From: Armatimonadota bacterium
GTDB lineage: Bacteria; Armatimonadota; Zipacnadia; Zipacnadales; JABUFB01
Reading direction: 5' to 3'
DNA length: 64,000 bases
Assembly: GCA_013314775.1 (NCBI GenBank)
Contig: JABUFB010000005.1
Span: 186,001 to 250,000 of the forward strand
Shown here in pieces: positions 19,467 through 54,602 of this stretch (position 1 is its first letter; each line of letters starts with the position of its first letter). The position numbers and the translations under genes are program-made. Below the pieces are notes generated by a model. That model was not told where the DNA came from and searched no databases. It was given only the letters and a program-made list of their open reading frames with translations.

Positions 19467-19989
19467 CCGGGACGGTCGGCCTACGCGAAAACCGCATTCC
19501 CCATCAATCCGCGTGGGGCGTCGTCTCGCCCGCCGGCCGGTGCCGCCGATTTTCTGCCGCCCCCTTCGGGGGCTCTTATAATCTCGATGGCGGCCTGGTT
19601 CCACCAGCTCACGCTGGTGGCAAAAGGCTTACGCCCCTTCGGGGCTGGACGGAGAACGGCAATATGCCAAGGGAGCCAACCGGGACGGTCGGCCTACGCG
19701 GGACCGGAAGGTTCCCGCCGGGACGGTCGGCCTACGCGAAAACCGCATTCCCCATCAATCCGCGTGGGGCGTCGTCTCGCCCGCCGGCCGGTGCCGCCGA
19801 TTTTCTGCCGCCCCCTTCGGGGGCTCTTATAATCTCGATGGCGGCCTGGTTCCACCAGCTCACGCTGGTGGCAAAAGGCTTACGCCCCTTCGGGGCTGGA
19901 CGGAGAACGGCAATATGCCAAGGGAGCCAACCGGGACGGTCGGCCTACGCGGGACCGGAAGATTCCCGCCGGGACGGTCGGCCTACGCG
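19467..19989. repeat. 251-bp tandem duplication with partial third copy
   Basis: Unit 1 (19467-19717) and unit 2 (19718-19968) are nearly identical; the difference I saw is GGTTCC against GATTCC near the unit end. A third copy is only the first 21 bases (19969-19989). Each unit starts and ends with the 20-base string CGGGACGGTCGGCCTACGCG, present five times, and holds three hairpins: CCCCCTTCGGGGG, CCACCAGCTCACGCTGGTGG and GCCCCTTCGGGGC. Non-coding; lies between the M19 start and the UroD-like stop. Confidence 0.93.
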
Positions 19990-22308: not shown

Positions 22309-22499
22309 GCCACGTTCGTCCATCGCTACCTCAATACCTTCTATCTGTGCGTGGTGCTCGTCTACGCAGGGCGCGGTTCACCCACCTGTGCCGGGGTCTG
22401 TTCGGCGTGCAATGCAACGGGCTTGGCGGTCTGTCCGCAACGGCATGAAGGGTGGGTTTCGGCCCTGAACGCATCAACGCGTCATCGGATCGGCGCCCC

Positions 22500-22700
22500 A
22501 ATTCTGTCTGGACCTGCCGCAATCAGACGGTCTCCCTGTTTGGTATGACTTCGGCGGGCCCAAGCGTGTCTCGAACAGCTGGCACCAGGCGCTCTGCGTG
22601 TTTGGCGCGAGACCGGCCGGCGCGATGGGTCTGGACCTGCCCGAACCAGGCGCTCTCCCTGTTTGGCGGGGGCTCCACTGGCCGAGCGTGTTGCCATCTC
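22500..22700 (-). repeat. Three degenerate 61-62 bp tandem repeats (copy A)
   Basis: Units contain CAGACGGTCTCCCTGTTTGG, CAGGCGCTCTGCGTGTTTGG and CAGGCGCTCTCCCTGTTTGG, starting at 22524, 22586 and 22647 (period 62 and 61). The flank GGTCTGGACCTGCC recurs in two units. No ORF of protein-like composition. A related array lies at 54244-54420 in the opposite orientation. Confidence 0.7.
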
Positions 22701-22850
22701 GCTGCTGGGCCTTTTGCCTCACAGCCCGCGAAGCGGGCGGCAGCCTATAGCCACGGGTGGAGTGGAGCGAAGCGGAACGGAACCCGTGGACCCGGTGCAC
22801 CTCGGATCACTTGAGCCCCCAACGGGGGCGACAGAAATGTACAAGATGCT
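22701..22850 (-). repeat. Dispersed palindrome-rich repeat, copy A
   Basis: Inverted copy of the element at 54090-54240. Positions 22742-22784 are identical, reverse-complemented, to 54154-54196 (43 bases), with scattered differences over about 150 bases. Internal hairpins: GCCCGCGAAGCGGGC, and CCACGGGT (22751-22758) with ACCCGTGG (22782-22789). Non-coding, and adjoins the tandem repeats on the same side in both copies. Confidence 0.88.
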
Positions 22851-23045
22851 GTGCCGTTGTTCCCCCCTTCCGGGGGCTCTTGGGTGGTCTTCCGGGGCCC
22901 GGTGTCCTGGGGCTGCGCCTCGCTTCGGGGACTATGAAACAACGGCAGGGGCATCCTGCGTCTCGGGATACAGCAGACGATGGGGATAAGGACTGGGCTC
23001 GACCGAGGCCACCTGCTCCAGGTAAACGCGAAGCGATGGGTAGCC
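22851..23045. other. Non-coding stretch upstream of the tRNA promoter
   Basis: Between the palindromic repeat and the tRNA promoter I see short hairpins (CCCCCCTTCCGGGGG at about 22862) but no gene-like reading frame or recognised RNA. Confidence 0.4.
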
Positions 23046-23074
23046 TTGACAACCTCGCAAGGCGGCAGTATAAT
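23046..23074 (+). promoter_or_regulatory. Consensus sigma-70 promoter of tRNA-Glu
   Basis: Perfect TTGACA (23046-23051), 17-base spacer, perfect TATAAT (23069-23074), placed 20 bases before the mature tRNA 5' end. Confidence 0.9.
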
Positions 23075-23093
23075 CCTGCCTGTTGTGAGCGGT

Positions 23094-23168
23094 GCGCCCA
23101 TAGTCTAGCGGTCAGGACGGCGGGTTCTCAGCCCGCTAGCCGGGGTTCGAATCCCCGTGGGCGTACCA
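23094..23168 (+). tRNA. tRNA-Glu (CTC anticodon)
   Basis: Cloverleaf: acceptor GCGCCCA with TGGGCGT (one G-U pair), D-arm with AGCGGTCAGGA, anticodon stem GCGGG/CCCGC with loop TTCTCAG (anticodon CTC), T-arm CGGGG-TTCGAAT-CCCCG and an encoded CCA end. It decodes GAG. Confidence 0.95.
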
Positions 23169-23229
23169 AATATCGTCCACTATGCTTGCCGGTCGCGGCC
23201 CCTCGGGTCGTGCGGGAAGTATTCCTGAA

Positions 23230-23258
23230 GGCCACGCATGGGCGTGGTCTTTGCTGTT
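23230..23258 (+). terminator. Probable terminator after tRNA-Glu
   Basis: GGCCACGC (23230-23237), loop ATGG, GCGTGGTC (23242-23249) with one G-U pair, followed by TTTGCTGTT. About 60 bases after the tRNA. Confidence 0.5.
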
Positions 23259-23345
23259 ACAGCTGGTGTTTTGTCGCGGTACGGGGCGCTTGGATGCTGG
23301 TCAAGCGCCTTCTCGCACCACGGCTGGGGGACGATGGGAGTCGCT

Positions 23346-24515
23346 ATGCACCGAGTCTGCACGGGCATCCTCGCGTTGGTCATCTCAGTCGCTCTTGCCG
23401 CCGACCTACCCCTGTTTTCGTCCTATCCCACCGAACCAGGGCAGGCTCTCGCCGCGTACTCGCGGGTCCGTGAGGCTCTCAACCCGGCCTCCGGCGTGGG
23501 GAAAGGGCCGGCTCCCGCGCCGTCGGACTACTCAGGGAAGGCGCTGGAGCTGTCCGGCGAACTGGCGGGGCGCATCGCGGTCAACGCCACCGGTTCCACC
23601 CGCGCCAGTGTTATAGTCCGTCTGAAACTGGGTGACGGCTCCACGGTGTGCGCGAGTTCGACCAGTGAGCTTTCCGGGCTGGACGACGGTGAACCGGTGC
23701 GGGCGATCCTGGACGTCACCACGACCGCTGGGGATCCCCCTCGTTTCCGTCTGCGCGCAATCATCAGCGAATTCGACCTCCCTTCCGTAGCCCCTGCTCC
23801 TCAGCCCGCCGCCGCAGGCTCTGCGTCCGTAACCAGACCACCATCGACGGCGCGACTCACTCCCGGGTTGAGCGCGCCGACCCACGGCAGCATGGCACTT
23901 CCCCCGGAATTGCGTGGACAGGCGCCAAGCGTTCCCGGTCTCGCACCTTTCGCGCTTGGGGTCGTGGGGAACCCCAGGGACGGCAAGGACGGCGCATGGG
24001 ATCCGGTCGGCAATGCAGGCTTCCCCATCGTTGAGACAGCTGTTCTTGAGCCTTGGAAAGCCTGGGTGCGACGCCAGAACTCAAACCTTGACGATTGGCA
24101 GGCGGACTGGATCGTTCGCTGGGTGACCTACTACTCCGGGCTGTACGGCGTGGATCACCGACTGATATTCGCGATGATCAAGTGCGAGTCCAGCTTCAAC
24201 CCATTCGCCGTTTCCAGCGCGGGGGCCGTGGGCCTCACGCAGTTGATGCCCTGCAACATTGTCGACTACAAAGTCTCGAACAAGTGGAACGTGCAGGAGC
24301 AGATCCGCGCGGGCGTGCGGCATTTCCGGGACATGCTCGACATCTGGGAAGGCCGCAGTCCATACGAGCAGTTCGCTCTCGCAGCCGCGTCCTATAACGC
24401 CGGCCCAAATCGCGTCAAGCGGGACGGCGGCATCCCCAACATCCCCGAGACTCGTAACTACGTGAAGAAGCTCGGCGATCTGTTCTACCAGCTCGTGAAA
24501 GACGGGTATCCGTAG
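23346..24515 (+). CDS. Secreted lytic transglycosylase (SLT domain)
   Basis: 389 residues. ATG at 23346 opens a signal peptide (HRVCTGILALVISVALAA) with GGGAG just upstream; another in-frame ATG 12 bases earlier is possible. The middle is Pro/Ala/Ser-rich; the C-terminal 140 residues are the SLT fold: FAMIKCESSFNPFAVSSAGA with the catalytic Glu, GLTQLMP, and ALAAASYNAGPNRVKR. It cleaves peptidoglycan glycan strands to 1,6-anhydro ends. Stands alone on the plus strand after the tRNA. Confidence 0.9.
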   Translation: MHRVCTGILALVISVALAADLPLFSSYPTEPGQALAAYSRVREALNPASGVGKGPAPAPSDYSGKALELSGELAGRIAVNATGSTRASVIVRLKLGDGSTVCASSTSELSGLDDGEPVRAILDVTTTAGDPPRFRLRAIISEFDLPSVAPAPQPAAAGSASVTRPPSTARLTPGLSAPTHGSMALPPELRGQAPSVPGLAPFALGVVGNPRDGKDGAWDPVGNAGFPIVETAVLEPWKAWVRRQNSNLDDWQADWIVRWVTYYSGLYGVDHRLIFAMIKCESSFNPFAVSSAGAVGLTQLMPCNIVDYKVSNKWNVQEQIRAGVRHFRDMLDIWEGRSPYEQFALAAASYNAGPNRVKRDGGIPNIPETRNYVKKLGDLFYQLVKDGYP

Positions 24516-24546
24516 AACCTCGTCGCACAATTCCGCGGACGCGCAA

Positions 24547-24573
24547 ACGCCCGCCTTCACCATTGGCGGGCGT
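24547..24573. terminator. Bidirectional hairpin between convergent genes
   Basis: Perfect 9-bp stem ACGCCCGCC (24547-24555) and GGCGGGCGT (24565-24573). On the minus strand it is followed by a short T-run, fitting an intrinsic terminator of the amidotransferase gene; on the plus strand it lacks a T-run. Confidence 0.55.
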
Positions 24574-24609
24574 AGCTGTGACTTGGGCAGTCTGCCGTTG
24601 CCGGCGGGG

Positions 24610-25338
24610 TCAGGCCGTGGCGCGTGCCTCCTCAACAAGGCGTTGGAACAGCGCCATCATTGGCCCGCCGCACTCTGCCATGAGCTCCGGGTGAAACTGC
24701 ACACCCAGGCAGAGGCGCGCATCCTGGCGCTCGATGGCCTCCACGATGCCGTCGCTGGCCCTTGCCACCACGCGGAACCCCGATGCAACAGAATCCACCG
24801 CCTGGTGATGAAAACTGTTGGTGCGGATCGTGGTCGCACCGAGTGTCCGGGCAAGCTCACAGTCAGCCTCGATCTGGACCTCGTGCGTCCCGTACCAGCC
24901 GGGCGCCTGCTGCGAGTGCTGCAGCTTGCTGCCGGTGCAGGAGGGGATATCCTGGTGCAACGTTCCTCCCGCGAAGACATTCAGTGTCTGAATGCCCCGG
25001 CAAATCCCGAGCACTGGGACCTCAGGATGCTGCAAAACCCACTCAACGACGGCCCGATCCTGTGTGTCCCGCTCCGGGCTGATGCGCCCCAGTTCCCGCG
25101 CAGGTTCCTGACCGTACAGTGCCGGGTCCAGGTCGACGCCCCCCGTAATGATCAGCCCCCCGACCGCTCCCAGAGCATCCTCCGCGACTGCTGGATCGTC
25201 CATGCAAGGGATCAGGATCGGTACCCCGCCGGACCGGGTCACGCACCGGCCGTATGCGTGGGGAACCGTGTCGCTGCCCGAAACAGCCGAACCCTCGGGC
25301 GACGAGTAGGAGCAGCAGACGGCGATCAGGGGTCTCAT
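24610..25338 (-). CDS. Class I glutamine amidotransferase, gamma-glutamyl-GABA hydrolase (PuuD)-like
   Basis: 242 residues. Peptidase C26 features: VGGLIITGGVDLDPALYG, the nucleophile in PVLGICRGIQTLNV, AGGTLHQDIP, SFHHQAVDSV and GVQFHPE for the catalytic His/Glu. Members hydrolyse gamma-glutamyl bonds, for instance of gamma-glutamyl-GABA in putrescine breakdown. No other polyamine genes are near, so the substrate is open. The start overlaps the lnt stop by 4 bases, so it is the last gene of an operon. Confidence 0.85.
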   Translation of the reverse strand: MRPLIAVCCSYSSPEGSAVSGSDTVPHAYGRCVTRSGGVPILIPCMDDPAVAEDALGAVGGLIITGGVDLDPALYGQEPARELGRISPERDTQDRAVVEWVLQHPEVPVLGICRGIQTLNVFAGGTLHQDIPSCTGSKLQHSQQAPGWYGTHEVQIEADCELARTLGATTIRTNSFHHQAVDSVASGFRVVARASDGIVEAIERQDARLCLGVQFHPELMAECGGPMMALFQRLVEEARATA

Positions 25339-26879
25339 GGCGCGCGGTTACCTCGCAGGAACGCCAGGCAGTAGAGGGCAGCCCAGATCAGCACCAGCGG
25401 CAGATCGCCCATGCGGTGGTAGGGAGTGATCGCGTCTCGCGCGTAGATTGTCTCGGTCGCGATGCCCTCGGTGAAAACGGGCACGCTGGCGATCTGCTCG
25501 CCGTAGGGGTCGTAGATAGCGCTCTCCCCGGATGTGGCGGCTCGGCAGACATACCGCCTGCTCTCGACTGCTCGAATGGGCGCGGTGTGGCTGTGCTGGG
25601 CGGGTTCGATCGTCTGCCCTTCCCAGGGATCACCCGTCATGAAGACAATGGCCTGGGCGCCCAGAGCGCAGATCTCCCGGCTCGCGTCCGGGAACATCGC
25701 CTCGAAGCAGATGAGCGGCGCTACCTTCACGCCTTTGACGTCCATGAGTGTGCGCTCGTGTCCCGGGGTAAAGTCCCTCTGCCGGATCGGGTAGCGGTTC
25801 AGGAACTGGAGATGCTCCCGGAAGGGCACATACTCCCCGAAAGCCACAAGGTCAACTTTGTAGTACTCATCGACGCGCTGGCCAGTCGGGTCGTAGAGTA
25901 TGGCGGCGTTGTAGTACACGCCATCAATGTCCTCCAAGGCGCCGGCCAGAAGGTAGCCCCCAGTCTCGCGGGCTGCATCGCGCGCTGCGAGATCCAACTC
26001 GGGCCACTGCTGGATGTAGCTGGGAAGCGCGGCCTCGGGCCAAACGGTCAGGTCGGTCTCGTCCGGCACCAGTTGCGAGAGCCGCAGGTAGGTTAGGCGG
26101 GAGCGCTCCATGTCCTCCTCAGTCACGCTGGCGCGAGGCGAGCAGTTGCCTTCGGCCACCGTCACCTCCAGCGACTGACCCTCCTCAGGGCTCCGAACCT
26201 TTATGGTGAAAGCTCCCCAAATGTAAGAGAGGATGAGCAGGACGTAGCAGGCTACGGCCACCCGCGCAGATGCTTGCGACCACCACTTCAGGGGAGCGTC
26301 GGCACGCAGCAGGGGCATCGGCAGCACACCGAGCAGGGCCTGGGAGAGCGCCGCGTTCACGCAGGCGATCGCGAAAGTCAAGCCGAACTGGCCGACAATG
26401 CTGACCACCTGAAGGATCGGTATCTGGTCGAATTGCGAGAAGGCGAGGTCGCCGCCAGTGAATGGGATCGGGATCGCGTGGGCACGCAGATAGGCGCATA
26501 GCGTCCAGGCAGTCGCGCCGCCTAACACCCTCCAGCCCGGCCGGACCAGGCGCATGGCAGGCCCTGCCGCGACACCAAATATGAACCCGAAGAACGCCTG
26601 ATACAGGGCCGCAATCGCCCAAGGGAAGGTTCCGTAGGGCAGCAAGAACTGAACGTAGTGCCCAAAGAACACCAGCGCAAAGACGAAGCCGCACAGCCCC
26701 CCCTGCAGGACTGTGCGGGTCTGGCTCAGCGCGAAGAAAAGCGGCACGAGCGCGACCCAGGCCAACGGTCCCAGGTCGGTCGGGGGGAAGGCCAGGATCA
26801 GCAGTACCGCTGAGATCATCGAATACCCCACTAGCGCGGGAACGCTGATGTACCGGGGCAGGGGAGAGGCTTCGTTCAT
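25335..26879 (-). CDS. lnt: Apolipoprotein N-acyltransferase
   Basis: 514 residues with at least six N-terminal membrane helices followed by a periplasmic nitrilase-fold domain and a final helix. The catalytic triad is visible: Glu in TVWPEAALP, Lys in YYKVDLVAFGEYVP, Cys in LICFEAMFP. Lnt adds the third acyl chain to lipoproteins in the inner membrane and is typical of didermic bacteria; lipoprotein substrates include the product at 34183-35268. Starts 25 bases after the aminotransferase stop. Confidence 0.93.
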   Translation of the reverse strand: MNEASPLPRYISVPALVGYSMISAVLLILAFPPTDLGPLAWVALVPLFFALSQTRTVLQGGLCGFVFALVFFGHYVQFLLPYGTFPWAIAALYQAFFGFIFGVAAGPAMRLVRPGWRVLGGATAWTLCAYLRAHAIPIPFTGGDLAFSQFDQIPILQVVSIVGQFGLTFAIACVNAALSQALLGVLPMPLLRADAPLKWWSQASARVAVACYVLLILSYIWGAFTIKVRSPEEGQSLEVTVAEGNCSPRASVTEEDMERSRLTYLRLSQLVPDETDLTVWPEAALPSYIQQWPELDLAARDAARETGGYLLAGALEDIDGVYYNAAILYDPTGQRVDEYYKVDLVAFGEYVPFREHLQFLNRYPIRQRDFTPGHERTLMDVKGVKVAPLICFEAMFPDASREICALGAQAIVFMTGDPWEGQTIEPAQHSHTAPIRAVESRRYVCRAATSGESAIYDPYGEQIASVPVFTEGIATETIYARDAITPYHRMGDLPLVLIWAALYCLAFLRGNRAP

Positions 26880-53915: not shown

Positions 53916-53944
53916 ATCATAGCACAATCTCAAGCTAGACTCAA
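53916..53944 (-). promoter_or_regulatory. Predicted promoter of the structured RNA
   Basis: On the minus strand TTGAGT (53944-53939), 17-base spacer, TATGAT (53921-53916). Five of six matches in the -10 box. Confidence 0.65.
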
Positions 53945-54089
53945 GGGCCAAATGGCAAAAAAGGTGCGTTCCCCGAAAACAGGTGCGTTTCGTGGAGCCC
54001 GAGCCTCATCTTTTTCCTCGGGCGTACCCGGCAATGAAAAAAGGCTTAGCTCCTACCCAACAGCCCGTGAAGCGGGCGGCACGACCCCG
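53945..54089. other. Short-repeat region upstream of the dispersed repeat
   Basis: Two AGGTGCGTT words in tandem (53964 and 53985) and an inverted repeat CCCGAG...CTCGGG around 53997-54020. No coding frame. Confidence 0.35.
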
Positions 54090-54240
54090 CAGCATGTCGA
54101 TCATTTCTGTCGCCTTCGGGGGCTTAGGCGATCCGAGGCGTACCGATTCCACAGGTTCCGTTCCGCTTCGCTCCACTCCACCCGTGGCTATAGGCTACCG
54201 CCCGCTTCGCGGACTGTGAGGCAATAGGCCCACCAGCGGG
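54090..54240 (+). repeat. Dispersed palindrome-rich repeat, copy B
   Basis: Reverse-complement relative of 22701-22850. 54154-54196 is identical to it over 43 bases; outside, differences include A/G at 54197 and T for C changes that keep the CCACGGGT stem (ACCTGTGG gives a G-U pair). The GCCCGCGAAGCGGGC hairpin is present in modified form. Confidence 0.88.
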
Positions 54241-54243
54241 ATT

Positions 54244-54420
54244 TCCACACGCTCCAGATCAGCGGAGCTCATGTCAGAGAGGGAGGCCGCCCGATTTCTG
54301 CGGGTCCAGAGACACTCCGTGACGGCGGAACTTATTCCAGACAGGCAGAGCGGATGCTTTTGTTGGGCCCAGAGACGCTCGGGACAGCGTCAGAAAACGC
54401 GCAGATGCTTACAGGACTGA
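54244..54420 (+). repeat. Degenerate ~62-bp tandem repeats (copy B)
   Basis: About 2.5 units: CAGAGAGGGAGG at 54275 and CAGACAGGCAGAG at 54338 (63 bases apart), each followed by a GGGTCCAGAGAC or GGGCCCAGAGAC word, and a partial unit with GCGCAGATGCTT. Orientation relative to the palindromic repeat is the same as at 22.5 kb. Confidence 0.5.
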
Positions 54421-54602
54421 AACGGCCTCAGCGAAAACTGCCTGTCGGTTATGTGCGGGCGGCAAATCATCGCGATGCCCGGCGGCAGTGGGGAGGACCT
54501 GCCCCGGATCCGGATGGACGCCCTGTTCGTCGCCAATGGGGTCGCTTCCCGAAAACCTGGCGGTGCTGCTGCGCTTCGCTTTCGTGAAGTGTCCGACGGA
54601 GC
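54421..54602. other. Non-coding stretch before the dxr promoter
   Basis: No protein-like frame seen and no recognised RNA; GC-rich with short hairpins only. Confidence 0.3.

Follow-up and report, generated by a model that had tools for sequence, protein, structure and literature searches.

Two copies of a hairpin-rich repeat, lying in inverse orientation in non-coding gaps of a 64,000-nucleotide stretch of an Armatimonadota genome (the window), raise the question of what kind of element they represent and how they reached their positions. An earlier reading made from the letters of the window alone (the sequence-only reading) had placed one copy at 22701-22850 and taken it for a stable, structured and dispersed element. 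Here, both copies, termed A and B, are compared with further loci in the window's own genome (G000, a MAG of 6.12 Mb in 37 contigs), in a sister species of the same genus (G001) and in other genomes of the phylum.

Similarity and dispersal of the two copies

The longest exact run that A and B have in common is 43 bases, and they are 86% identical over 151 bases, in agreement with the perfect 43-base core and the identity of about 85% over 150 bases that had been estimated by eye. Their full alignment has 203 of 259 columns identical (207 bits). Palindromic hairpins are present in the letters as described earlier, and so is the CCACGGGT/ACCCGTGG stem. A substitution in this stem had been said to keep pairing as G-U; this is true of the opposite strand only, and on the strand originally considered CCACAGGT of B gives an A-C mismatch. 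The tandem array of ~62 bp that had been noticed beside the repeat is real, though diverged, and it belongs to the element instead of being its neighbour. Tandem Repeats Finder reported no such array in the window; when the element's right end is used as a profile, about 2-3 repeats of ~60 bp come to light in A (22450-22666, minus strand), and B has 2 of them (about 54272-54428).

Copy A has at least 41 dispersed matches in G000, a lower bound with 40 of 95 candidates scored. An exact 42-base match to the core was found in genome_contigs only in four contigs of the Armatimonadetes MAG Gw_SlDig_bin_68. The core is hence not unique to two loci, and segmental duplication or rearrangement of one locus can be dismissed, the copies being at least 41 in number with unrelated flanks. 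Together with compensatory changes in the stems and the relatives that occur in 25 of 291 Armatimonadota genomes (see below), this count bears out a structured, dispersed element. No orthologous insertion common to both species was seen among the loci compared by blastn.

Ends, target duplication and empty site

Alignment of 30 loci demonstrates that the element is about 460 columns long, not 150, and that the hairpins are enclosed in a shell that starts with GGGTGCGTTCCCCG and ends with GAAACGCACCC. Accordingly, A extends from 22450 to about 23033 (minus strand; profile matches to the left and right shell ends, letters checked), with the right terminal inverted repeat GGGTGGGTTTC at 22450 and a decayed left end at about 23033, and B occupies 53962-54429 (plus strand, 468 bp), from AGGTGCGTTCC to GAAACGGCCTC. 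Terminal inverted repeats of the form GGGTGCGTTC...GAAACGCACCC are seen both in the 30-copy alignment and in the paired ends, as in miniature inverted-repeat transposable elements (MITEs); the repeat itself reads GGGTGCGTT, and the two ends of the shell are GGGTGCGTT...AACGCACCC. The 18 elements with paired ends span 86-583 bp and have no coding capacity, which again fits a MITE.

Flanking target duplications, which the sequence-only reading had proposed to look for, are present. In the 18 paired elements, the 8 bases outside the two ends agree at a mean of 5.61 of 8 positions vs 3.68 in permuted pairs, pointing to a target duplication of 7-8 bp, fixed in length as expected of MITEs (z 8.1; the observed mean is reached in 0 of 300 permutations). 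Copy B provides the one clean empty site: the sister species has GGCGAAAG once (alignment with G001:C162), and the window has GGCAAAAA (53954-53961), the element and AGCGAAAA (54430-54437). Since G001 has the site without the element, B is a 468-bp insertion accompanied by an 8-bp target duplication. No clean empty site for A was found in G001, where the gene order differs between the genomes. Cut-and-paste transposases of the DDE type duplicate their target in this manner.

Seven elements were inspected together with their flanks and a transposase gene was seen in none of them, so that none of these seven is an autonomous copy, and DNA searches with the shell ends recognised no transposase-bearing copy. 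The shell also occurs without a core match, at C14:96973-97058 (86 bp), C1:10773 to about 10904, and C9:291724-291877. Its left ends have strongly diverged, many columns of the 30-locus alignment agreeing at 50-70%. In other genera no convincing match was obtained: 5 of 46 genomes gave matches at E<=0.01, and in three of these genomes the match was single and weak (E 0.003-0.007). At the sensitivity of these searches, the shell is restricted to G000 and G001.

The three-hairpin core unit

Three hairpins make up the core unit, in the order HP3 (CTGTCGCCCCC..GGGGGCTCA), HP1 (AATCC-stem-GGCTATAGGC) and HP2 (GCCCGCTTCGCGGGC). In copy A, the unit lies at 22718-22836 on the minus strand (134.5 bits, model R1) and comprises HP2, GCCCGCTTCGCGGGC, at 22724-22738, HP1, CCACGGGT...ACCCGTGG with a long loop, at 22751-22789, and HP3, GCCCCCgttGGGGGC, at 22815-22829, all on that strand. 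The unit of copy B is at 54105-54220 on the plus strand (111.1 bits), and a second, inverted HP2 is found in its left arm (54062-54077, minus strand). Two diverged units of 58 bits each are located at 19552-19651 and 19803-19902 (plus strand), in successive repeats of a 251-bp tandem repeat (19467-19989; 2.1 copies, 99% identical) that houses both.

HP1 exists in at least three forms within one genus. In a sequence-only alignment of 55 units, 94.0% of the cells of the three stems are paired and 43 double changes are counted vs 14.6 after shuffling; the corresponding values for 85 units from several genera are 97.3% and 217 vs 55.7, although these lean towards structure because the alignment was fitted to the model. 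The units are often arranged as inverted pairs and at times as tandem arrays. A known RNA family is rejected as an identity for the unit, as the Rfam threshold was reached in the window by the tRNA alone.

Outside the genus the core is found without the shell. Unit matches are present in 25 of 291 Armatimonadota genomes when 12 candidates are scored in each. One of the 25, G023, has a single partial match and no homologue of the Y1 transposase described below. Seven loci of G274, which also has no such homologue at E<=0.001, yield equally scoring partial matches to model positions 46-86, i.e. to HP1 only, and perhaps represent a separate family with an HP1-type hairpin.

The core is about 90% conserved between copies vs near 50-70% for the shell ends, and the target duplications, through decay, now agree at 5.6 of 8 positions. 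Homogenisation by a Y1 enzyme, selection or later capture of the core could account for this gap.

Promoters beside the left ends

The left ends of the shell lie at a preferred distance from promoters. At 19 of 29 usable left ends, an outward, sigma70-like promoter is predicted with its -35 box 10-18 bp (mode 17) from the element, compared with 3 of 30 right ends (Fisher 1e-5). These ends remain from 30 left-shell matches, one of which was dropped for a missing end, and from 42 right-end matches, 12 of which were dropped as incomplete repeats. Over the outward 90 bases, 7 bits are reached at 21 of 29 left and 7 of 30 right ends, with a sigma70 matrix of E. coli values. The inward strand of the left flanks reaches the same score in 4 of 29 cases. 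For the 10-18 interval, 200 Markov shuffles give a mean of 1.0 and a maximum of 6 of 29, and 1.3% of random 90-mers of the window have a promoter there. A check independent of the matrix leads to the same result, TTGAC being located within 60 bp of 16 of 29 left and 2 of 30 right ends.

Units without a shell behave differently: such a promoter accompanies 2 of 32 of them (33 of 85 core matches hand-picked, one dropped for a short flank), so the preference is not a property of the hairpin core. Nor is the promoter carried by the element. When the flanks are aligned on the -35 box, the two hexamers have 69% and 64% pairwise identity and all other positions 26-30%, i.e. chance level, from which it follows that the flanks are unrelated and that the promoter lies outside the element. 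Moreover, the empty site of B in G001 already has the promoter TTGAGT-17-TATAGT. Because only the hexamers are alike between sites and the empty site has its promoter, we regard the promoter as host DNA and reject an element-borne one. The 9 bp adjoining the element have no common sequence, and thus no target motif is apparent.

In the window, the predicted promoter TTGACA-17-TATAAT (23046-23074, plus strand) is 12 bp outside the left end of A and serves a tRNA-Glu gene (23094-23165, plus strand), and TTGAGT-17-TATGAT (53916-53944, minus strand), 17 bp outside the left end of B, existed before the insertion. Ten proteins encoded downstream of such promoters were scanned and all ten have a Pfam match, among them a cold-shock protein, the RNA polymerase beta subunit (rpoB), MgtE, thymidylate kinase, a response regulator and an aldo/keto reductase. 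No good promoter is found at 10-18 bp for 10 of 29 left ends. In one reversed case (C9:291815), the 156-bp copy at C9:291724-291877, it is the right end that lies 17 bp from a perfect promoter. L227, the sole complete left end in the sister species, has TTGACG at 17 bp and TATAAT near it with a 12-bp spacer; L232, a 22-base match in that species, has no promoter by eye.

As a separate observation, window positions 23042-25400 are 98% identical to G001:C232:26491-28849, compared with an identity of 85-88% to that genome in the window's other syntenic stretches. The highly similar stretch starts at the tRNA-Glu promoter, possibly reflecting a recent transfer or exchange beside the tRNA gene.

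A Y1 transposase associated with the core

G000 contains two Y1_Tnp genes, one of which (C16:55908-56348) has core units on both sides and the other none. Homologues at E<=1e-43 occur in 6 of 46 genomes of the class (G000, G001, G011, G013, G029 and G030), and these are exactly the genomes of the class with at least 9 units (Fisher 1e-7). Units are near all six of these genes, on both sides in five. A Y1 gene flanked by units on both sides, the layout of a TIRtron, also occurs in G235, G236 and G125. Throughout the phylum, 91 of 291 genomes have a Y1 homologue at E<=0.001, and they include 20 of the 25 unit-positive genomes (Fisher 2e-7); at this threshold no homologue was found in the other five (G023, G080, G234, G255 and G274). 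Among 30 Y1 loci examined, 13 have a unit nearby at E<=0.001 and 17 have none.

The protein matches PF01797 with 83 bits and the IS200 model NF033573 with 62.6 bits (cut-off 55), and is therefore IS200-like; the model of REP-type transposases, NF047646, has a cut-off of 80 bits and gives 20.4 and 21. H56-x-H58 (HUH), Y116, Q120, H123 and H124 are invariant in 10 of 10 homologues, as expected of Y1 enzymes of IS200/IS605, and the Y---Q--HH signature of TnpA-Y1 subclass 1.2 is likewise present in all ten. GT[AG]G is not seen at the foot of the hairpins, which by inspection of the 55-row consensus are preceded by CTGTC, AATCC and CTGCC.

Discussion

The repeat consists of two mobile parts, one within the other, with target duplications and an empty site, so that the sequence-only reading was incomplete; the position relative to promoters was invisible to it because only two copies were in view. 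We conclude that A and B are probably degenerate copies of a MITE, a non-autonomous transposon about 470-580 bp in length, in which a promoter-guided shell carries the ends of a Y1 element. The shell has terminal inverted repeats and 8-bp duplications, the hairpin unit flanks Y1 genes, and each part also occurs without the other.

The repeat might instead be a REP/BIME family of the usual kind, mobilised solely by a Y1 (RAYT-like) transposase, with the shell as a variable flank, as the units flank Y1 genes and occur in inverted pairs and tandem arrays. We consider this very improbable, because 8-bp duplications and an empty site are unexpected from Y1 enzymes and contradict it for shell-bearing copies like B, the shell exists alone down to 86 bp, and promoters are not favoured by units that lack it (2 of 32). 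The three conserved hairpins with their compensatory changes would also be explained by a structured RNA, regulatory or small, encoded at many loci. Such an RNA is hardly credible, however, given that the window has no Rfam match besides the tRNA, that the promoter near shell-bearing copies is directed away from the element, and that inverted pairs, tandem arrays, linkage to Y1 genes and the empty site are those of mobile DNA.

The fixed spacing itself can be read in two ways. Random intergenic insertion followed by selection would retain those copies whose left end, lying upstream of the -35 box by one or two turns of the helix, acts as an activator or insulator. A fixed orientation and spacing (19 of 29) are equally expected of such a functional upstream element, and housekeeping promoters are among the sites. 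Nevertheless, a selected activator should not have left ends as diverged as those seen here, with many columns at 50-70% agreement; the 156-bp copy presents its right end at the same distance of 17 bp, and the 9 bp next to the element are without common sequence. We thus regard selection for position as unlikely and, given the decayed left ends, the reversed copy at equal distance and the lack of a target motif, infer that insertion was targeted.

Targeted insertion by the composite MITE could proceed as follows. The putative transposase of the shell would be guided to the region upstream of a promoter, at about -45 to -53, which is occupied by RNA polymerase and its alpha C-terminal domains. 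Insertion there would leave the promoter intact, with the left end facing it. The hairpin unit would be the end structure that the Y1 transposase recognises as single-stranded DNA, and a gene-less inverted pair of such ends may have been captured by the shell and then carried to promoters. For the more specific proposal, that a DDE-type mini-transposon inserts at about -45 to -53 relative to sigma70 promoters with its left end turned towards them, RNA polymerase or promoter-bent DNA being the probable cue, and has thereby spread unrelated Y1 ends beside housekeeping genes, we find acceptance and doubt evenly balanced. Yeast Ty1 and Ty3 retrotransposons insert a short distance upstream of genes with the transcription machinery as guide, and as part of the same proposal the shell might be viewed as a bacterial counterpart of this targeting. 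The likeness is one of analogy only, as Ty1 and Ty3 are eukaryotic retroelements associated with RNA polymerase III, and the present element is bacterial, produces 8-bp target duplications and is found at sigma70-type promoters.

MITEs, TIRtrons and IS200-like enzymes are already known kinds, according to the portions of the literature cited here (PMC10969869, PMC3733652, PMC6006769). The BrickBuilt element of Porphyromonas gingivalis (PMC4596501) and MITEs (PMC10969869) are described, like the present element, as gene-less, intergenic and multi-copy with terminal inverted repeats, and BrickBuilt also holds a tandem repeat (PMC4596501). BrickBuilt and Correia elements are, however, reported to carry promoters of their own, in contrast to the host promoter at a fixed distance here; the cited sections describe an intergenic preference of MITEs and no fixed promoter spacing (PMC4596501, PMC10969869). 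The fixed distance upstream of promoters appears to be a new feature of this MITE: a limited literature search, on promoter-targeted insertion and on MITE or REP elements of Armatimonadota, found no such case.

As for the core, TIRtrons or TIRYTs as outlined by Di Nocera et al. (2013, PMC3733652) likewise have a Y1 gene between long inverted repeats, which are also dispersed as single, dimeric and grouped copies. TIRYTs are mostly assigned to subclass 2.1, whose proteins have HTH domains at the C terminus, and bear a GGGGWSAS motif in their repeats, in the account consulted (PMC6006769), unlike the short IS200-like protein and three-hairpin ends found here. The latter protein resembles TnpA-Y1 subclass 1.2 (Quentin et al. 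2018, PMC6006769) in Y---Q--HH, a short IS200-like core and low copy number. A specific C-terminal domain also belongs to the definition of that subclass. It is characterized in the text cited as mostly from Cyanobacteria and Bacteroidetes and generally devoid of typical terminal structures, whereas the Y1 gene considered here, from Armatimonadota, is bordered by inverted three-hairpin units that are also dispersed in tens of copies. REP, REPIN and BIME sequences with RAYT (TnpA-REP) have in common with the core dispersed hairpins, inverted pairs and arrays, and one or two repeat-flanked transposase genes per genome; they differ from the core, whose units comprise three hairpins in about 100-120 nt and have no visible GTAG/GTGG foot.

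Bacterial transposons are usually considered to choose their targets by sequence, DNA shape or replication, or through a dedicated targeting protein. A family that keeps one orientation and a fixed spacing above promoters would lend itself naturally to studying how a transposase is steered to transcription starts without breaking genes, and would yield a promoter map from sequence only in an uncultured phylum. For IS200-like enzymes resembling subclass 1.2, in which recognisable ends are said to be generally absent, the hairpin units provide a clear set of candidate ends.

A second, distinct Y1 transposase gene of G000 (C9:152051-152428) lies amid a different repeat family, whose translated frames repeat RPRAKARGYGPLAGRPPDGEA. 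GC-rich repeats resembling those around this gene are present in one flank sequence. Judged from these letters, the gene and its repeats look like a second REP-type system.
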